Shown: positions 32,069 through 43,137, counted from the first letter of the stretch. The stretch is DNA of 64,000 bases from Thermodesulfovibrio sp. 3462-1 (GCF_040451425.1 NZ_CP144374.1:248001-312000); one strand, 5' to 3'. Notes: generated by a model not told the origin, from the sequence alone. Translations and numbers: made by a program.

Positions 32069-34473
32069 GGTTCTACTTCTCCTTGCTGGGCATACATAGC
32101 TACTCTTTTGATTTTCAAGTCATGTAGCTTTTTACCAAAGATAACCTCTACAATTTTAGAAATTCTTGCTTTATGAACACTGTCTTTTACTATTATACAT
32201 GCTTGATTACCATTTATTTGAATTTCTTCTAAAAAATCCTTGAGATAAAGCATTTTTTCATCTCTTTTTATGGTCATAAGGCTTATGGCATTATTGTCAA
32301 GCATAAATTCTTCTTCCAGTTCAACAATATACTTATATCGCTGAATAAAAGAATTAAGGGAAGGACTTTCATGAGGAATTTTTTTTGTTTCAATAATTTT
32401 TAAGCCTTCAGGCAAAATGTGATTTAATCTTTCAATGTCCTGATGATTAAGCTCACCGTAAATCTTCAAATCAAAATACTCTCTTTCACTTTCAATTCCC
32501 ACAGGTAAAGAAGGACCAAAAGAAATCTCTGGTTTTGGATGAAACCCCTTTGAAACTACAAATGGTATATCTGCCATTCTTAATGCTCTTGTAATGAGAT
32601 TGTTTAATTCAAGCTGAGAAAGATATTTCATCACTCCTGTTTTTTTATGGCAAAATCTTATTCTGGCTTCTTGACTTCTTAAATCATTTAATTCATTTTT
32701 TATCATGACAAGCTGAGGCTTTGCATCCTTGATATGGTTCGGAATAATCGATTGGCATCTCAATCCGCATGCTTCACATTTATCAGTGCATTCTTTTGAG
32801 CATTCACGGTTCATAGCCTTTTTAAATTCAGTTTTAAGAAAATCTTTTTTTACTCCTGTATCAATAAAATCCCATGGCAGAGGTTCATCCAGAGAAAGCT
32901 GTCTATTTGCATAGTTAAATAAATCAATTCCTGTTTCATCCATAGCTTTGAACCATCTATTAAACTCGAATAAATCAGACCATGCACTAAGTGTTTCTCC
33001 ATTAAGCCATACTCTTAATAAAAGTTCTGATAATTTTTCATCTCCTCTTGATAAAGCAGCTTCAAGAAGGCTCATCTCTGGATTATGTCCTTTATAGTGA
33101 ATTTTACTTTTTTTAAAGGCTTCTCTTAAAAAATTAAGTTTCTCAACCATTTCATTAAAATTAATCTGTCCAAGCCACTGAAATGGAGTGTGGGGTTTAG
33201 GAACAAAGGGAGAGACAGTAACATTTATTTCAACAAATTTTTTAGTGTATTTTTTCGCAATTTTTATTATTTTTCTTGAAAAATTAGCAATTTCTTCTAT
33301 ATCTTCTGCTGTCTCTGTTGGCAGTCCTATCATAAAATAAAGCTTTATACTCTGCCAGCCTTCCTCAAACAAAACGCTGCAAGCTCTTTCAATATCTTCA
33401 TCTGAAATATTTTTATTAATAACATTGCGAAGCCTCTCTGTGGCTGCTTCAGGTGCGATTGTAAATCCTGTTTTTCTTGCTGATTTTATTGCCTGAAGAA
33501 GTTGTTTTGTTACTCTGTCAGCTCTTATTGAAGGAAGAGAAACAGCAACTGCCTTTTCTGCAAAATATTGATTTAAAGCTTTAACAAGTTCAACTAAATA
33601 GGGATAATGGCCTATGCTAAAGGAAAGTAAAGAAAGCTCTTCATAACCAGTGTTTTTTATTAGATTTTTTGCAATTTCAAATACCTTCCCTGGGCTTCTA
33701 AATCTTAAAGGTCTGTAAATAAAACCTGCTTGACAGAATCTGCATCCTGAAGGACATCCACGGGATACTTCTACGGAGACTCTATCATGAACAATCTTTG
33801 CATAAGGAACCACAGGAGCCTGTGGGAAAGGAGCATTTTCCAAATCATTTATAAATCTTCTTTTAACAGTTTTTTTACCAGCATAAGGAACATAAAATCC
33901 TTCAATTTCTGAGATTGCCCTAAGAAGAGATTCCTTTGATGAATTGGATTTTTTCCATTCTTTGTATGTTTCAACAAGTTCCTTAACTGCCTCTTCTGCT
34001 TCTCCAATAAAAAAAGCATCAATAAAATCAGATACTGGCAGGGGATTAACAGTAGAGGGACCTCCAGCAATTACAAGAGGATGCTTACCAATCATTCTGT
34101 CCTGCCATTTTAGAGGGATACCGCCAAGCTCAAGCATGTTTAAAACTGCAGTATAGGAAAGTTCATATTGAAGGGAAAATCCTGCAATATCAAATTCATT
34201 GAGTGGAGTTTTTGTTTCAAGACTAAGTAGGGGAATTTTATGCTTTTTCATGTGCTCAGACATATCAATCCAGGGAGAGAATACTCTTTCAGCATAAACA
34301 TAGGGGATACTGTTTAAGATATAATAAAGAATTTTCAAACCAAGATGAGACATTCCAATTTCATACACATCAGGAAAACATAGAGCAAATCTTATGAATT
34401 CTCCCTTTTTGTAAACAGCATTTATTTCGTGATTTATATATCTTGTAGGTTTTTCAAAATAGACAAGATTCAT
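32065..34473 (-). CDS. B12-binding-like radical SAM protein fused to DUF2344
   Basis: An 802-residue fusion. The N-terminal region (1-190) has the B12-binding-like fold of TIGR03960 proteins, the radical SAM core holds the cluster motif SRGCPSGCRFCQAGF (three Cys, about residue 240), and the C-terminal 210 residues are DUF2344/TIGR03936 (RIRFCHKKTGVMKYLSQLEL, GFHPKPEISFGPSLPVG). A small cysteine patch CSKECTDKCEACGLRC joins the two. Co-occurrence with RNase G downstream is a known conserved pair; the reaction is not established. Confidence 0.9.
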   Translation of the reverse strand: MNLVYFEKPTRYINHEINAVYKKGEFIRFALCFPDVYEIGMSHLGLKILYYILNSIPYVYAERVFSPWIDMSEHMKKHKIPLLSLETKTPLNEFDIAGFSLQYELSYTAVLNMLELGGIPLKWQDRMIGKHPLVIAGGPSTVNPLPVSDFIDAFFIGEAEEAVKELVETYKEWKKSNSSKESLLRAISEIEGFYVPYAGKKTVKRRFINDLENAPFPQAPVVPYAKIVHDRVSVEVSRGCPSGCRFCQAGFIYRPLRFRSPGKVFEIAKNLIKNTGYEELSLLSFSIGHYPYLVELVKALNQYFAEKAVAVSLPSIRADRVTKQLLQAIKSARKTGFTIAPEAATERLRNVINKNISDEDIERACSVLFEEGWQSIKLYFMIGLPTETAEDIEEIANFSRKIIKIAKKYTKKFVEINVTVSPFVPKPHTPFQWLGQINFNEMVEKLNFLREAFKKSKIHYKGHNPEMSLLEAALSRGDEKLSELLLRVWLNGETLSAWSDLFEFNRWFKAMDETGIDLFNYANRQLSLDEPLPWDFIDTGVKKDFLKTEFKKAMNRECSKECTDKCEACGLRCQSIIPNHIKDAKPQLVMIKNELNDLRSQEARIRFCHKKTGVMKYLSQLELNNLITRALRMADIPFVVSKGFHPKPEISFGPSLPVGIESEREYFDLKIYGELNHQDIERLNHILPEGLKIIETKKIPHESPSLNSFIQRYKYIVELEEEFMLDNNAISLMTIKRDEKMLYLKDFLEEIQINGNQACIIVKDSVHKARISKIVEVIFGKKLHDLKIKRVAMYAQQGEVEP

Positions 34474-37400
34474 TATTTTATTATGTCACTTTCCACTGCT
34501 TTTTCTGAAAGTGGTTTTGAGAGGAAAAATCCTTGAAGCATGTCACAGCCAAGAACTCTCAAAATATCAAGATGTTGTTTATCTTCAACTCCTTCGGCAA
34601 GGGTTATATAGTCAAGTCTTTTTGCAAGCTCTATTATTGTTTGAACAATTGCAAAGGATTTTTTATCTTTAAGCATATCTCTTACAAAGGCAATATCAAT
34701 TTTAATAATGTCTACAGCTAAGTCCTTAAGATAAACAAGGGAAGAGTATCCTGTGCCAAAATCATCAATTGCAATCTTCGGTGGATTTTTCAATTTCTTA
34801 ATCATTGAAATTAATTCTATTGTCCTTTCAGGATTTTCAATAAATATTCTTTCTGTAATTTCTACTGTAATTTTATCTCTTATATTTTCATCAATCCAGG
34901 ATAACTTTTTAATAAAATCAGGTTCATTAAAGGTTTTTCCTGAAATGTTTATGGAAATATTAATGTTCCATTTTTTTATTTTTTCCGTGACTTCTTTAAT
35001 TAACCAATCTTCAAATTTGCTGAGATATTGACTGTTTTCTATATAGTCCATGAAAAAACCAGGATAATAAATTTTATCTCCCTGCACAATTCTAACTAAA
35101 GCTTCAAATCCTGCAACTTCTAAAGTATCAGTATGATAATAAGGTTGATAATAAAGAACAAACAGATCTTGCTCAAAGGCTTTCTTAACCAGATTAATCA
35201 CATTCCATTGAGTTTCTATTTCTTTTTCTATCCCGGGGTCAAAAAACTTTATTATTCCTGGACCTTCCTTTTTAGCCTTTGTTAATGTTATGTCAGCTTT
35301 CTCATAAAGTGTCTTAAAGGTTTCTCCATCCTTAGGAAACAAAGCTAATCCAGCATTGATATAAAATAAAATGGATTTACTATCTATTTGAAAACTTAAG
35401 TCATTCAACTCGAATAGCCTGGAGTAGGTTTTGGATAACTCATATGAACCCTCTAAAGTTAAATATATGCCAAAGGTATCTGCACTGATTCTCGCTATGG
35501 CATCTGTTTCCTTAAAGGTTTCCTTTAATTTTTGGCTTAGAAATTTTAATAACCCATCTCCACCTGAAATCCCAAGAGTTTTGTTTATAGAAGTCATATT
35601 AAACACATCAATCAAAATAAGCACCCCTATGATTCCTCTATCTTTCGTTTCTTTTAATTTTAAGGGAACTTGAGCAGCAAAGCCATTCAAATTTAAAAGC
35701 CCTGTAAGTGCATCGTAGTTTTGTAAAATATTTATTCTTTCAGAAAGCATTATTTGTTCTGTAATGTCTTTTGCTACAGCAACAAATCTTAAAATATTTC
35801 CTGGAAGGCTGACAGGAACTATTTTCAGGTCAGCATGGAAAATTTCACCATTTTTCTTTCTATTTGGAGTTATGGCATTAAATATTTTTCCTGAAAGAAT
35901 AGTATTCCACATCTGTTTATAAAATTCGGGTGGATTGAGCCCTGATTTAAATATTCTTGGATTTTTTCCAAGAAGTTCTTCCTTTGTGTATCCACTTATT
36001 TTTTCTACAGCTTCATTTACATAGATAATATCTCCCTTTTCATCAGTAACCAGTATCCATGTATCAGAATGTTTAAGTGCTTCTGCAATAATCATATTCT
36101 GTCTTATTCTTTCCACCCTTTCAACAGCAAAGGATAGATCTCTTTGGATTTCCCTAAGTAAATCAATAATTGATTCGTTGAAATAATCTGGAAATTCAGA
36201 GTATATGCTTAATATAGCCACAACCCTGTCGTGTTTCAGAATCGGTATTAAACATGAAGAAAGAATTCCTCTTTTTAAAAGCTCAGCTCTCAGAGGATTG
36301 TCTTCACCGTTTATTCTTAAATCAGGATTAACAATAACATTTTTTTCATTCAAAGCTTTTTCACATATATATTCAGTTTTTTCAAAAAATTCTATAATAC
36401 CCTGATCCTCGCCAAAATGAAATTTTGGAATTCTTCTGCAAGACTCATCACAAATACCTATCCATACAAGTTTAAACTTAAAATTATCTACCAGGGCTTT
36501 ACATATTCCACTGAAGATTTCTTCTTCTGTTAAGGAGGTTGTTATTGTTTTGTTTATTTGTTTTAAAATTTCCTTTATATTTTCCGCACATTTTTGCCTG
36601 GATATATCATAAAACAATATAAAATTTGAACATCTGCCTCTAAAAAGAATCGTTGATGCTAAACACTGAACTGGTATTATCTTACCATCCTTTCTTATAA
36701 AAGAAATCTCATAAATTGCTGAAAATTTTTCACCTCTGAGTCTTTTTTCCATATTTTCAATTACTTTTTCTCTGTCCTTACTGTAAACCAGATCTGTACA
36801 GCTCATTTCCAATATCTCATCTTCTCTATAACCAAGAATATTTAATGCGTATTCATTGATAAAGACGATTTTTTCTTGATAGACAATAATGCCAATTATA
36901 GGAGAAGACTTTAATGCCTCAACAATATCATTGTTAGCCCACTCTTCAAGTAATAGATCTAATTGACTGTATAGACTTTTAATATGTTCAATCTCGTCCT
37001 CTGAAGCTTTTTCAATATCTTCAATGTTAAGCAAAGCATCCTTATATTTTTCTAATGAAGGATGAATAAAAATAAAATGAGGACATGGGAAACAGAAGTC
37101 CTCTGAAATTTTTATATTTTTTCCATTCTTCAACTCTTCCAATGTCTTTGTATATATGAACCCAATATCTGCAGCAGAGCTTTGCACAAGTTCAAGTATT
37201 TCATCGTAATTTCTGGTAAAAATTAGCTGAAAATTTTTGTAAACTTTTTTATGAAATAAAAGAGGAAGAAAAGAAAATTTTCTGTTTATCAAAGCCACAT
37301 TTATTATTTCTTTTTGAGGATAATAGGAAGAGGAAATAATGCTACAAATAGAATGGTTCTCGTTTTTTAATTTGCCAAGAAGGATGTATCCTTTCTGGAT

Positions 37401-37610
37401 AAGTTTTATTGTAGAATCAGGATTCGCATAGACAAAATGATAATCAAATTCTTGAAGTTTTTTTTCCTCTTCTATAAAGTCTTCAAAAGTAACAATATTT
37501 ATTTGTCTCTCTAAAATTGAAGATATGTAAGAGATTATGCTTTTCCATTCTTCAATATCTTTTTCCAAACAGTGAGGACAAAAGGCAAAATTTAAAATTT
37601 TCGGCAACAT
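34473..37610 (-). CDS. PhnD-like/PAS/GAF/PAS/degenerate-GGDEF/EAL sensory protein
   Basis: A 1045-residue signalling protein without signal peptide. Order: periplasmic-binding-like (PhnD type) domain 1-225, PAS 235-340, GAF 350-500, PAS 505-620 (KSGLNPPEFYKQMW), GGDEF-like 630-790, EAL 795-1045. In the GGDEF the active loop reads SADTF, so cyclase activity is unlikely. The EAL keeps GFEALVR, NISINISG, VEITE, IDDFGTGYSSL, IKID, LAEGVED and QGFFLSKPL, so it should be an active c-di-GMP phosphodiesterase. The N-terminus carries a CPHC motif (11-14). Co-directional just after the soluble chemoreceptor gene, with a 4-base gap. Confidence 0.88.
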   Translation of the reverse strand: MLPKILNFAFCPHCLEKDIEEWKSIISYISSILERQINIVTFEDFIEEEKKLQEFDYHFVYANPDSTIKLIQKGYILLGKLKNENHSICSIISSSYYPQKEIINVALINRKFSFLPLLFHKKVYKNFQLIFTRNYDEILELVQSSAADIGFIYTKTLEELKNGKNIKISEDFCFPCPHFIFIHPSLEKYKDALLNIEDIEKASEDEIEHIKSLYSQLDLLLEEWANNDIVEALKSSPIIGIIVYQEKIVFINEYALNILGYREDEILEMSCTDLVYSKDREKVIENMEKRLRGEKFSAIYEISFIRKDGKIIPVQCLASTILFRGRCSNFILFYDISRQKCAENIKEILKQINKTITTSLTEEEIFSGICKALVDNFKFKLVWIGICDESCRRIPKFHFGEDQGIIEFFEKTEYICEKALNEKNVIVNPDLRINGEDNPLRAELLKRGILSSCLIPILKHDRVVAILSIYSEFPDYFNESIIDLLREIQRDLSFAVERVERIRQNMIIAEALKHSDTWILVTDEKGDIIYVNEAVEKISGYTKEELLGKNPRIFKSGLNPPEFYKQMWNTILSGKIFNAITPNRKKNGEIFHADLKIVPVSLPGNILRFVAVAKDITEQIMLSERINILQNYDALTGLLNLNGFAAQVPLKLKETKDRGIIGVLILIDVFNMTSINKTLGISGGDGLLKFLSQKLKETFKETDAIARISADTFGIYLTLEGSYELSKTYSRLFELNDLSFQIDSKSILFYINAGLALFPKDGETFKTLYEKADITLTKAKKEGPGIIKFFDPGIEKEIETQWNVINLVKKAFEQDLFVLYYQPYYHTDTLEVAGFEALVRIVQGDKIYYPGFFMDYIENSQYLSKFEDWLIKEVTEKIKKWNINISINISGKTFNEPDFIKKLSWIDENIRDKITVEITERIFIENPERTIELISMIKKLKNPPKIAIDDFGTGYSSLVYLKDLAVDIIKIDIAFVRDMLKDKKSFAIVQTIIELAKRLDYITLAEGVEDKQHLDILRVLGCDMLQGFFLSKPLSEKAVESDIIK

Positions 37611-37614
37611 AAAA

Positions 37615-38490
37615 TTAAAACTTCGTTAATTTAGAGATTTCATCATTAACTTTCACAACAGTAGCGAAAACTTTATATGTTTCATTGAGCATAGATGCAG
37701 TATTTGTGATTCTCTTTGAAACATCGGTTAAAACCTGACTTTGCTCTTCTATTGCTGTTGATAAAGTATTTACTGCATCACCAACTGTGTCTGACATATC
37801 CTTTGTTTTTTCAAAAGACGCTCTTATTGTTCTCATTTCCTCTTCTACTTCTCTGAAAAGGTATTTGATTTTTTCTACCTCTTTGACTGCAGTTATTACT
37901 CTTTCACTAAGATTCCCAAGTATTTTACTAATGTCTTTTGTTAAAGTATCTGTTTTCTGAGCAAGTTTTCTTATTTCATCTGCTACCACTGCAAAGCCTC
38001 TTCCAGCCTCTCCAACTCTTGCTGCTTCAATTGAGGCATTGAGGGCAAGAAGATTTGTCTGCTCAGCTACATCTGAAATAGAAGTAACAATGTTGCCAAT
38101 GTTTTTTGTTGCTTCTCCAAGTTCTTTTATGTTTGTGACAACTTCAATTATCTTTTCATTGTGGGATTCAATATCCTTGACTCTTTTTTCAAGTTCTTCA
38201 TCCATTGCTTCATTTTGCTTAACAAGTGTCTGAACTTCTTCATTTATAGAGGCTACACTTTGTGACATGTCCCTTATGGTGGTATCAATTTCTTCCATAG
38301 CAGTGGCAATTGAGGAGACTTCATCCTTTATTCTTGAGAAATTGGAATCAATCAATCCCATTGTATTTGAAATTGTTGAGCCAACAATATTTGATTTTAT
38401 AATACCTGAGGATAAAGTTCTAATAAGTGAAAGATTGGTATCAATGTCTTTTTTTGTAAGATTTGTATTTTTCTTTTTTCTTAAAAACAT
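37615..38490 (-). CDS. Soluble methyl-accepting chemotaxis protein
   Basis: A 291-residue chemoreceptor signalling domain without transmembrane segments or HAMP. The highly conserved hairpin tip is seen in [20 protein letters not shown] and [15 protein letters not shown]. The rest is long helical coiled coil, with a short basic N-terminus (MFLRKKKN). It has no sensing module of its own, so it must take its input from another protein; the ODP gene 11 bases upstream is the obvious candidate. GAGGAAT precedes the ATG. No cheA or cheW is in the window. Confidence 0.9.
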
Positions 38491-38501
38491 TTTATTCCTC
38501 C

Positions 38502-39290
38502 TTATCTGTAAAACTCCTCAGCTATATCAACTCCGCATTTTAAATTACTAAGCCAGTTAAAAAATTTCTGAATGTGTTCTTTCTTGTAAATTATTGCTCC
38601 ATGCTGTGGCGCTATTCTTTCAATATTGAGTTTATTTATTTTTTCAAGATATTTTCTTATCACACTGTTTGATGCAAGATATCTCCGATGAAATCCCTCC
38701 ATGAGCTTTAAATGACTGTCAAAGTCTTCAACATATGGATATCTCTGTCCTTTTGGGAATATCGCTGCTCCAAGATCTCCTGTAAATAAAGTTTTTGAAC
38801 GGGGATCATAAACATGAAAATTGGCTACAGAGTGTAAGAAATGAGCAGGAATTATCTCAAGATAATCGCCTGAAGGAAGTTGAATACTTCCCCCGCCTTC
38901 CTCCAATGGGACAATTCTTGTCATATCAAATATCCCATAATGAGGAAGAAACCTAACCCACCACTTAGAAATATAAACTTTAGCAGATGTTACGCTGAGC
39001 CATAATGCCACACCAGAGGAGACATCAGGGTCCTGATGGGAAAAGAAAAGATGTTGAATTCTTTCAAGGTCAACATACCTTGATACATTTGCAACAACTC
39101 TTGGAAAAACATGAACACCACCCGGGTCAAGAATTACACCTACATTTTTATTTTCAATAAGATACTGATTTACCTGAACTAATCCTTCTTCTTCATTTTC
39201 TTCCCAGCCAAGCCAGATAAATTTATGGATTCCATCATCGTAAATAATATCTCCTCTTACAATGTCGACTTCTTTGTTTAATGCTGGCAT
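38502..39290 (-). CDS. ODP-type di-iron metallo-beta-lactamase-fold oxygen sensor
   Basis: A 262-residue protein of the flavodiiron-related MBL fold without a flavodoxin domain. Metal ligand motifs: [12 protein letters not shown] (HxDxD, about 85-95), [23 protein letters not shown] and PQHGAI. This pattern matches the oxygen-binding di-iron proteins (ODP) that in Treponema denticola act as an iron/oxygen sensor for a chemoreceptor lacking its own sensor. GGAGGAGC lies before the ATG. First gene of the leftward run; followed by the soluble chemoreceptor and the EAL protein. An ordinary MBL hydrolase or NO reductase-like role is the alternative. Confidence 0.82.
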
Positions 39291-39427: not shown

Positions 39428-42076
39428 CTACTGTAAAGCTTTTTTATTTCTGAAAGCTCTCAGCATATTTGCATGGTGAGGAGAGCCCTGCATTTTCACC
39501 TTATGGCATACCTCGCACTTCATCTCTGATGAGATTGGAAGAGGCGTTCCCTGATATTGCATGGGCTGAATATTGTCTCTATTTTTTCCAAACTCATTGA
39601 ATGCAGGATAAATTGCATGGGGAGAGCTGTGACAGGCTATGCAGGGAATTTTTTCAGTGTTTTCTTTTCTGTTTCTGTAAAGACCTGCAGTGTCGGTTGT
39701 CCATTTATTGAATGCTCTAACATTATTAGCAGGTTTCTGAAATCCCACATGACAACTAAGGCAATCAGGCTCCTGTATCCAGGGCGCTCTTGGTTTTATC
39801 TCTGAGATTGGTGTTTCAGGCTTTAGATTTCTAAGAAGAAGCTGAGCAGTTGTTGTACCTTCCTGAGACAATAAAACTGCAGAAGCATGCTCATCAAGTC
39901 TTCCATGACACCTGGTGCAACCAATTCCGATCTTTGCATGGATGTCTCTGTTACATCTTGTGTTACCTTTTGCATCATTGGGATGGCATAAGTTACAGGC
40001 TCTTTCATCTTTCCATGGTATATAGTTGGCATGCCATCCATGCATGGAGGCTGAAAAACTGTTGTGCCTCTTTATTCCCTTTGATTTAACAATAAAATCC
40101 TCATGACATTTCTGACACATAACAGGCTTTCCTTTAAGAGCATTTTCAAGAAGCTTTGTCCCATTATTTCTGTCATGAACTCTCAGGATGTTCTTAGCAG
40201 TATTATCAGATATACCTGAAATGCCATTCCATCTTGGAGCACCACTGTGACACTCAAAGCATCTGAGTTCCGTTGAAACAGGAGCAACAAATTTTGTGGT
40301 CTGTAAAATCCTGCCTGTAGATTTATGTATTGCCTTTGCTTTAAAAACTGGATAAGGATTAAATTTTCCGTCATCTCTATAAGGTAAGACAGGAATCCCC
40401 TCAGCCGAGAATATATTTCTTTCCTTATCATAATCAAATACTCCACTAAGACCTTTACCGGTAACTCCTGTATTTTCAGCCAGTTTTTTGCCTTTCAAAG
40501 ACTCAGAATACTTCCAGAACTCACTATGTCTGGATGGATTCTCATATCCTTTCTGGACTTCATAATGAATTTCTATGTTTTCTGAGACAATTTCTGGCTT
40601 TAAACCTCTTTTTATAAGCACTGCCTGGAAGGAACTTCCCGGATATAGGAATGAAAACCATTTGTCTGAATCAGTTATGCATTTCTCACCGAGCGTGCTC
40701 CAAGCAAGAAGGACATATTCATCCTTCTGGGAATTGAAGGATGGAATGGAGACTTCCTCCTGTATTGGTTTAAAATCTGTCTTTTTGTTTTCTCTTTTGT
40801 CATGAAGGCTTGCTATAAACTCTGCAAGAGCCTCCATCTCCTTTTCCGTTCCAATAAACTTGGGCATGTAATCGCGAACTTTACCCTGACCATAAATCTG
40901 AGATAGTATTCCAAGCTTTGTAAGTCCCTTTGTTTTTTCAACAATATCATTTTTAACCCCTCTGATTGTGTGGCAGCTTAAACATTGAAGATTAAATAGT
41001 TCTTTACCTGCAAGGAGTTTGTTTTTTTCTGTCACTTCTTTAATAGGACTCCATTTTGCATATTTGAGAAATCCTTCTTTATTAAGCCTTTCCTCATCTG
41101 TAACCAAGACAGAAGGTGAATACATGTATCCATAAATAACATATGGCTTTCTTGCATACTCTCTTATATATTCAAAACCACCAATCCATGCGAGACCAAT
41201 TAAAACAAGTATAAACACTGCAATCTGCTGAAGCTTTCTTGAAGTTTTCATTATGAAAATGAGTGTTAGAAGATAAATCAGAACTGACGAGACTATAAAG
41301 ACATTGACTGCGTTGGCGGTCTGTCTATTAAGCCAGAAATTGGTCAATCTTGCATTTTCTGGAATTGCATAAAAATACCAGAATCCTGAAATTATCAGGA
41401 AGGCAAGAGGCATATAAAGCCATTTTGCACAATATCTTAGAAGTTTATCTCTAAAATCACTCTGGGGCATAGATACTGCTGTAATAAATCCGAAAAGACC
41501 TGCGAACATAATGCATACTGCAGTTCTGAAAACAACACCTGGAAGATTTGTGGGATTGAAAAATCCATCCCAGAAGTTATAACTTCGGAGCCACTCTCCA
41601 GGAGTGAGCATAAAAGTTATAATTCCATTAATTATGAAAAGACTTAACCACGCTGCAGCTGCGTAAATAAAAGCAATTCTCAGGCGATTTTTATCAGAAA
41701 GTGTTTCGAATTTGTAGTGATAAATAAGCAATGAGACGATTTCAACGAGGAAGAAAACCCACTCAATTGCCCAGGCAAATACAAAAGTATGAATTAGCAC
41801 AGAAGTTGCCCAGGGACTTGAAAGAGCAATAATAAACCATATTCCAACACCTGTTACTCCACCAAAAACCATTGTAAGAAGCAGGAAAAACCAGATATGT
41901 TTACGTACATACTGTCTAAGTTCGTAATTTTTTTCCCGTACACTTTTTAAATCTGTAAGCCATAAAAATATTCCACCGCCTACTGCAAAATGTGCGACAA
42001 AGACGTGAAGAACAGCAATTACTGCAATTAAAGTTCCTGAATTGAGATAATATAATTGCCAAACAGGATAATTCAT
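39428..42076 (-). CDS. Cytochrome bd subunit I-like membrane protein fused to octahaem cytochrome c
   Basis: An 882-residue fusion. Residues 1-330 hold about 8 membrane segments with CydA-like features: early histidines (His24, His29), the AIEWVFFLVEI helix and GFEYIREYARKPYVIYGYM, which resembles the GRQPW-VYG end of CydA. The rest is extracytoplasmic with eight CxxCH haem-binding motifs (Cys at 365, 606, 654, 694, 720, 772, 812, 854). The first haem sits in a small class I-like domain; a roughly 150-residue block with LAWSTLGEKC and GIPVLPYRDDG separates it from the other seven. Likely it moves electrons between quinol and a periplasmic haem wire; whether it reduces oxygen is unknown. ATGA overlap with the gene upstream. 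Confidence 0.85.
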   Translation of the reverse strand: MNYPVWQLYYLNSGTLIAVIAVLHVFVAHFAVGGGIFLWLTDLKSVREKNYELRQYVRKHIWFFLLLTMVFGGVTGVGIWFIIALSSPWATSVLIHTFVFAWAIEWVFFLVEIVSLLIYHYKFETLSDKNRLRIAFIYAAAAWLSLFIINGIITFMLTPGEWLRSYNFWDGFFNPTNLPGVVFRTAVCIMFAGLFGFITAVSMPQSDFRDKLLRYCAKWLYMPLAFLIISGFWYFYAIPENARLTNFWLNRQTANAVNVFIVSSVLIYLLTLIFIMKTSRKLQQIAVFILVLIGLAWIGGFEYIREYARKPYVIYGYMYSPSVLVTDEERLNKEGFLKYAKWSPIKEVTEKNKLLAGKELFNLQCLSCHTIRGVKNDIVEKTKGLTKLGILSQIYGQGKVRDYMPKFIGTEKEMEALAEFIASLHDKRENKKTDFKPIQEEVSIPSFNSQKDEYVLLAWSTLGEKCITDSDKWFSFLYPGSSFQAVLIKRGLKPEIVSENIEIHYEVQKGYENPSRHSEFWKYSESLKGKKLAENTGVTGKGLSGVFDYDKERNIFSAEGIPVLPYRDDGKFNPYPVFKAKAIHKSTGRILQTTKFVAPVSTELRCFECHSGAPRWNGISGISDNTAKNILRVHDRNNGTKLLENALKGKPVMCQKCHEDFIVKSKGIKRHNSFSASMHGWHANYIPWKDERACNLCHPNDAKGNTRCNRDIHAKIGIGCTRCHGRLDEHASAVLLSQEGTTTAQLLLRNLKPETPISEIKPRAPWIQEPDCLSCHVGFQKPANNVRAFNKWTTDTAGLYRNRKENTEKIPCIACHSSPHAIYPAFNEFGKNRDNIQPMQYQGTPLPISSEMKCEVCHKVKMQGSPHHANMLRAFRNKKALQ

Positions 42077-43137
42077 TTTTTTGCCTCTTTGAAAAAGGCA
42101 AGTTTAAGCATGTAAATAATAACTCCAACGCCTGCAAATAAAATCAGAAGAAAGATAACAAAAACATCCCACTGAGGATTAATCTTTAGCTCAGAAATCT
42201 TGAAATAATCACCAAGCTGAAAAATCCTTAGGTTGTAGCGATTTATAATCATAGCAAGAATAGTAAGAGTAAGAAAAACCAGGGTAAAGTTCAACTTTTC
42301 TTTAAATCCTGAAATCATTGCAGCTGTAGCAAAGACTATTCCTGAGATAAACACTAAAGTGGCTAAAAAATCACCACCCATAAATTGAAGCATGACTTTT
42401 TTTGGAAGAGTTAAAAGGAATAAAATTCCAATAAACATTTGAACCACTGTGGCATAACTGAATATTTTCAATCCTTCTTTAATTTTCATACTTTGTATTT
42501 TTTTATCCGTACTTTTTGTAAGTTTATTATAAACAGCATAAAAAATACCTCCCACAGCTAAAGAAGCAACAATAAAGTGGAAATATCTTGGATATATGGT
42601 TATTTCTTTCCACAGTAGAATTGTTCCGTCTCTTTTTTCAAAGTATTGAGGCCATTTTTGAGGCTCTTCCATGAGTGTGAGATTGTTAACCAGAATAAAG
42701 GCAATGTAAAGCAGTATAAAAATCACAATTAAAAGAGACAGGTTTGCCAAAGTAGAGGCTTCAACTTTCCTGTAGTAGAAATAGGATGCATAGTAGGCAA
42801 CTATAAGCGATGGAATAATCAATATCCAGAAAGTTCCAAGAAGCACAGAACTGGTGTAGAAAAAATGCCCAAAAACAACCTGAATGAACAAAAGAGCAGG
42901 GATAGCCATATTTATCGCAATAGCAAAAAGAATGGGAATTTTTTGTGCAATTAGTTTTTTTATCTCCAGAGTTTCACCTGTAGCAGATAAATTTTTATAA
43001 ATGATTATTAAACTCAATCCAATAATAGAATTTACAAGCACGATATGAATCATGAAAAAAAACTGTTCAAACAGAATCAAAATCTGCGCAGGCGCAGGAA
43101 TGCTTTCAGTATATGGAATCAGATTTTTAATCTCCAT
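42073..43137 (-). CDS. Polytopic membrane partner of the bd-like/octahaem protein
   Basis: A 354-residue protein with about 9 hydrophobic segments and few soluble parts. No CxxCH motif is present. Histidines near helices (in FFMIHIVLV, VVFGHFFYT, PRYFHFIVA) could ligate haem b. It is not recognisable as CydB by eye, yet its place directly upstream and in ATGA overlap with the CydA-like protein, and similar helix content, suggest the second membrane subunit of the same complex. First gene of the module, with its own promoter and no Shine-Dalgarno sequence. Confidence 0.75.
   Translation of the reverse strand: MEIKNLIPYTESIPAPAQILILFEQFFFMIHIVLVNSIIGLSLIIIYKNLSATGETLEIKKLIAQKIPILFAIAINMAIPALLFIQVVFGHFFYTSSVLLGTFWILIIPSLIVAYYASYFYYRKVEASTLANLSLLIVIFILLYIAFILVNNLTLMEEPQKWPQYFEKRDGTILLWKEITIYPRYFHFIVASLAVGGIFYAVYNKLTKSTDKKIQSMKIKEGLKIFSYATVVQMFIGILFLLTLPKKVMLQFMGGDFLATLVFISGIVFATAAMISGFKEKLNFTLVFLTLTILAMIINRYNLRIFQLGDYFKISELKINPQWDVFVIFLLILFAGVGVIIYMLKLAFFKEAKK

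Follow-up and report, generated by a model that had tools for sequence, protein, structure and literature searches.

A pair of overlapping genes in Thermodesulfovibrio sp. 3462-1, here P1 and P2, probably encodes an O2-reducing membrane enzyme from the cytochrome bd superfamily, i.e., one of CydAA' type which, as judged from sequence and predicted structure, would be driven by c-type cytochromes and not by quinols. Textbook accounts generally present cytochrome bd as an oxidase of quinols. Both genes lie in what is here called the window, that is, the whole stretch of 64,000 nucleotides that was analysed (NZ_CP144374.1:248001-312000), from the genome of a strict anaerobe, of 1.82 Mb in a single contig, which also encodes a separate canonical CydAB. 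By window position, the features of the pair are:

39428..42076, minus strand: P1, 882 aa, with 8 membrane helices and 8 CxxCH motifs
41087..42076, minus strand: P1 residues 1-330, a divergent 8-helix membrane domain of bd (CydA) type
40805..41029, minus strand: P1 residues ~350-424, a monohaem class I cytochrome c domain (C365-x-x-C368-H369)
40277..40729, minus strand: P1 residues ~450-600, a beta-sandwich (AF2 strands, pLDDT >90)
39467..40261, minus strand: P1 residues 606-870, a heptahaem domain with 7 CxxCH motifs
42073..43137, minus strand: P2, 354 aa, the putative CydA' partner, a predicted paralogue of the P1 membrane domain

The open reading frames of 882 and 354 residues, which share a 4-nt overlap (ATGA), are exactly where a preliminary description had placed them, and the eight CxxCH motifs and roughly eight membrane helices which that description counted in P1 are present both in the sequence and in the model. 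The CxxCH motifs start at residues 365, 606, 654, 694, 720, 772, 812 and 854. The AlphaFold model of P1 (mean pLDDT 90.1, pTM 0.86; 54 aligned sequences) has eight long membrane helices, at residues 13-47, 51-86, 99-121, 128-153, 177-201, 207-237, 252-275 and 280-307, followed by a small cytochrome domain made of helices, by a beta-sandwich, and by a multihaem part of helices and loops. A block of 150 residues had been described between haems 1 and 2. A distinct domain does exist there, i.e., the beta-sandwich of residues ~450-600, but the block itself is ~237 residues long, with its first ~55 residues belonging to the class I cytochrome c domain (355-421). Structure comparison of the beta-sandwich gave only weak, Ig-like matches (Z<=5), with no family named.

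This layout is not a matter of chance, as the same eight-haem, ~880-aa form recurs among relatives. Genome contigs were scanned and gave 207 of these, 80 of which were kept, and in ~65 of the 80 all eight CxxCH motifs are in one protein, 840-900 aa long, at near-fixed spacing. P2 is found immediately upstream in nearly all relatives for which enough upstream sequence exists. The fusion of a bd-like protein to c haems, as previously proposed for P1, stands, as does the idea of c haems serving as an attached wire.

By homology and predicted fold, the membrane part of P1 is a member of the cytochrome bd superfamily, that is, a CydA-like subunit I, since profile matches of orthologues, profile-profile comparison and structure comparison all agree. 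Compared directly with P1 and P2, PF01654 and PF02322 gave no significant match. The PF01654 check that had been set beforehand thus failed for P1 alone but succeeded for 36 of 54 P1 orthologues of the same architecture (best E 2.6e-15), with orthologues from members of the genus exceeding the curated cut-off (E 8.8e-8 and 1.5e-6). Profile-profile comparison (hhalign) of P1 with canonical CydA gave an E of 1.4e-13. The predicted fold, when compared with ten CydA chains, gave Z of 29-31 over 308-317 residues at ~3 A; the CydA structures matched are those of E. coli, Mycobacterium, Corynebacterium and Geobacillus (Foldseek E 3e-6). The monomer model of P1 does display a bd fold, at Z ~30 over 316 residues, and the earlier suggestion of a CydA-like membrane part is upheld by all three comparisons, strongly divergent from CydA as that part is. 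The AIEWVFFLVEI motif, likewise pointed out previously, is real and carries the equivalents of E99 and E107.

Which residues P1 retains and which it has lost is relevant to an appreciation of its likely donor. In E. coli bd-II, the ligands are His186 and Met393 for b558, Glu445 for b595, and His19 for d (PMC8585947). P1 residues H24, E105, E112, E306 and R309 correspond to E. coli CydA H19, E99, E107, E445 and R448, with the last two equivalents carried by an EYARKPY motif, and all five are conserved in 27/27 P1 rows aligned. The position of H186, which with M393 holds the b558 linking quinol to the O2 site, is by contrast Phe in 27/27 rows. The Q-loop, along with its K252/E257, is absent from P1 and from every orthologue aligned. 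As helix 7 aligned poorly by sequence, loss of M393 is read from there being no conserved Met or His in that helix among the aligned P1 rows. On paper, then, the O2-reducing di-haem site of P1 would seem to be intact and its quinol entry route gone, a combination which disfavours the quinol-linked complex of the preliminary description, for which P1 and its aligned orthologues offer no support.

The preliminary description was correct also in supposing a membrane partner, here a 354-aa protein of predicted bd fold (pLDDT 92; Z 24.8 to CydA, ~23 to CydB), but it missed that this partner appears to be a second CydA-type paralogue. That is, by profile comparison P2 is a CydA-type paralogue of the P1 membrane domain and not a CydB, as its E values are far better to P1 (7e-10) and to canonical CydA (4.8e-4) than to CydB (0.11). 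CydB as an identity for P2 was ruled out on that last value, the Z of ~23 to CydB reflecting solely the shared bd fold. P2 and 43 homologues gave no meaningful Pfam or NCBIfam match, with PF02322 unmatched in all 44, and the P2 profile, searched against solved structures, returned chance matches only. Equivalents of H19 (44/44), H186 (43/44) and R448 (44/44) are kept, whereas E99, E107 and a conserved E445 are lacking in the 44 members aligned; conserved P2 residues are H31, H187, R300 and R304. The losses of P1 and P2 would thus seem to be complementary, as expected for a CydAA' pair having one catalytic half.

The haem-bearing remainder of P1 begins with a class I cytochrome c domain, residues 355-421 matching PF13442 (E 4.7e-6; 27.3 bits against a cut-off of 27). 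C365, C368 and H369, as well as M404, which is a candidate distal ligand, are conserved in 54/54 P1 orthologues. Within the heptahaem part there are eight further conserved histidines (634, 679, 682, 713, 730, 820, 867 and 868), enough for all seven of its haems probably to be bis-His, with haem 1 probably His-Met. The heptahaem part of P1 orthologues matches c3/c7 families. It matches PF22113 (MtrC/MtrF domain II/IV) in 39/54 orthologues, over the cut-off in orthologues and below it in P1. The haem part is presumably periplasmic, as the N terminus should be outside, as in CydA, and eight helices follow. Split loci fit such a periplasmic wire: in three of them (L080, L095 and L099) a one-haem CydA part is followed by a separate gene with an apparent N-terminal signal sequence, the product of which, where complete, has seven CxxCH motifs. 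Two members of the Desulfovibrio group (L091:1855-3786 and L101:7366-9264) have a CydA-like protein of 435 aa with one haem and, after it, a separate decahaem cytochrome of 632-643 aa (10 CxxCH).

Relatives occur in Nitrospirota, Thermodesulfobacteriota, Bacteroidota, Ignavibacteriota, Spirochaetota, Verrucomicrobiota, Krumholzibacteriota and other phyla, and those carrying the octahaem form are mostly anaerobic lineages. The gene is present in all near-complete genomes of the genus Thermodesulfovibrio that were searched. Within Nitrospirota, however, the fused form is found only in this genus and in one near relative (12/246 genomes), with other Nitrospirota families possessing instead a 436-aa monohaem form. 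A tree of the N-terminal domain places the window sequence among those of Thermodesulfovibrio (Nitrospirota), in a clade which is sister to Thermodesulfobacterium and nested in Ignavibacteriota/Bacteroidota sequences (starred branches), and this placement suggests horizontal transfer. The split forms, being themselves nested within the fused set, look like later fissions. Short P1 forms of 582-597 aa with three CxxCH motifs only (L088, L093 and L097) make up a clade of their own, and in these the partner gene comes after P1 rather than before it.

Two further genes of the window are relevant to gene neighbourhood:

38502..39290, minus strand: ODP, an oxygen-binding diiron protein (PF19583)
37615..38490, minus strand: an MCP signalling-domain protein adjoining ODP (PF00015, E 4e-37), with no recognised sensor domain

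An ODP gene is directly downstream of P1 in several members of the genus. Together (37615-39290), ODP and the MCP protein look as if paired for chemotaxis or signalling in response to O2. The MCP gene is followed immediately downstream, at 34473-37610, by that for a 1045-aa protein in which a phosphonate-binding-like domain is joined to PAS, GAF, GGDEF and EAL domains. Canonical cydA lies within ~6 kb of 10 of the 80 loci (0.91 Mb in total), on at least five separate branches of the tree, versus 0.2 expected if cydA is estimated to occur once per 4 Mb. Further neighbours, at some relatives, are CydB, a flavodiiron protein, Rrf2 regulators and an Rrf2-rubrerythrin fusion. Monohaem relatives are similar, with one (L018) found directly behind canonical cydAB and another (L017) behind rubrerythrin and Rrf2. 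Most relatives have no O2-related neighbours within the flanks examined. Where found, neighbouring cydAB, flavodiiron, Rrf2, rubrerythrin and ODP genes point to O2 and oxidative stress. In Desulfonema magnum, a 317-aa fusion of Rrf2, rubrerythrin and rubredoxin adjoins the octahaem bd gene (L057:9654-10607), and is possibly a self-contained redox-sensing regulator.

Given what is observed, i.e., homology, fold, ligands kept and lost, gene pairing, a fixed eight-haem layout and an O2-defence neighbourhood, an electron route may be proposed. Low-potential periplasmic cytochromes (c3-type and, in sulfate reducers, hydrogenase- or formate-linked) would supply electrons to the seven-haem chain of the P1 C-terminal domain, with both this direction of transfer and the redox potentials being presumed. 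From these seven probably bis-His haems, electrons would pass to the His-Met class I haem, attached right behind helix 8, and from it directly to the E306/H24 di-haem site, by-passing the lost b558/quinol route. There, assuming that haems do occupy the site and that O2 is the substrate, O2 would be reduced to water, any electrogenicity of that reaction being similarly presumed. The membrane dimer would be completed by P2, in which H31/H187 may bind a further b haem. Physiologically, P1-P2 would serve anaerobes by scavenging O2 with high affinity and so defending them against it, though with canonical CydAB in the host genome, O2 removal need not require P1-P2.

A quinol-linked complex would instead oxidize quinol in the membrane and send electrons out via the octahaem wire to acceptors in the periplasm or outside the cell, or else do the reverse, delivering electrons into the quinone pool. 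Resemblance of the heptahaem part to c3/c7 and MtrC/MtrF domains, as in electron-export systems, is in keeping with this possibility, and P2, by retaining H31, H187 and two arginines, could build a different quinol or b-haem site. The Q-loop, K252/E257 and H186/M393 nevertheless are missing from all P1 sequences. The glutamates E99, E107 and E445, furthermore, are kept everywhere, and these are parts of an O2 site that something serving only to conduct electrons could do without; the neighbours, too, are O2-defence genes rather than outer-membrane conduits. Quinol linkage is unlikely.

Perhaps the donor is as proposed, i.e., the same cytochrome-fed complex, and it is the substrate that differs, being NO, peroxide or some other small oxidant rather than O2. 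Bd oxidases have been linked to NO and oxidative-stress tolerance (PMC12342949, PMC10839748), and flavodiiron, Rrf2 and rubrerythrin neighbours would fit NO or peroxide defence as well. The recurrent adjacency of canonical cydAB, along with ODP, points however to O2, making a different substrate improbable, even as sequence alone cannot separate these substrates. It is very improbable that P1-P2 is a degenerate bd relative, structural or sensory in role and lacking turnover. The membrane part is indeed very divergent from CydA, and the O2-sensing genes, ODP and MCP, do adjoin, but every catalytic ligand and each of the eight haem sites is retained across many phyla.

Cytochrome-driven O2 reduction by P1-P2, if that is what occurs, would add an O2-defence route that is missed by current genome reconstructions of sulfate reducers; in one published for Thermodesulfovibrio, canonical cydAB is alone in being credited with detoxifying O2 (PMC5165239). 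Strict anaerobes would be able to discharge periplasmic electrons, as derived from hydrogenase or formate, onto O2 without the quinone pool. The broader proposal is that of a widespread and hitherto undescribed respiratory enzyme in which bd di-haem O2 reduction is hard-wired to a periplasmic octahaem conductor and to a catalytically degenerate CydA', with the quinone pool by-passed; for this the balance of evidence is, we think, about even. For P2, neither Pfam nor NCBIfam offers a family model. Non-quinol bd classes have been predicted from sequence, with donors unproven; here the donor chain is covalent in the catalytic subunit, such that the prediction can be addressed with one purified two-subunit complex.

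No described bd-octahaem fusion was found in the open-access literature, subscription papers and preprints being outside the scope of that search. A c-linked, non-quinol bd is an already predicted kind of enzyme. The open literature searched gave no account, however, of the fixed octahaem fusion with its CydA' partner, of its spread among anaerobes, or of its O2-defence setting. With canonical CydAB (qOR; PF01654/PF02322), P1 shares a membrane fold (Z ~30) and the equivalents of H19, E99, E107, E445 and R448, but it differs in lacking the Q-loop, K252/E257 and H186/M393, in having eight c haems fused to it, and in having a partner that is CydA-like. With the MtrC/MtrF outer-membrane decahaem cytochromes (PF22113 domains II/IV), P1 has in common a multihaem domain which follows a beta-sandwich; the P1 part, though, has seven haems, is fused to an inner-membrane bd domain, and has no outer-membrane anchor. 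The monohaem relatives (L016-L019), which are pairs of 436 aa and 404 aa from other families of the order, possess as does P1-P2 a CydA-like domain, a class I c haem and a paired partner, but neither beta-sandwich nor heptahaem part; identity is ~32%.

Bd enzymes have been divided into qOR, OR-C and OR-N (PMC13189123; classes of Murali et al. 2021, also cited in PMC10839748 and PMC12342949). Cytochrome c has been proposed, without biochemical proof, as donor for OR-N CydAA' or non-qOR bd enzymes (PMC10839748; see also PMC12342949). P1-P2 shares with OR-C and OR-N, e.g., CydAA' of Nitrospira and Nitrospinota, a missing quinol site, two CydA-type subunits and this proposed cytochrome c donor, in keeping with the likeness to bd-like proteins of Nitrospira that had been noted previously. 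OR-N-like homologues from the same order (L129-L132; 560-590 aa) have no fused c haem, whereas P1 has a whole octahaem donor fused. Those genes adjoin mono- and dihaem cytochromes as well as NxrC-like proteins, as in the bd-like clusters of Nitrospira. Likened by class description only, P1-P2 would seem most to resemble what OR-C should be.
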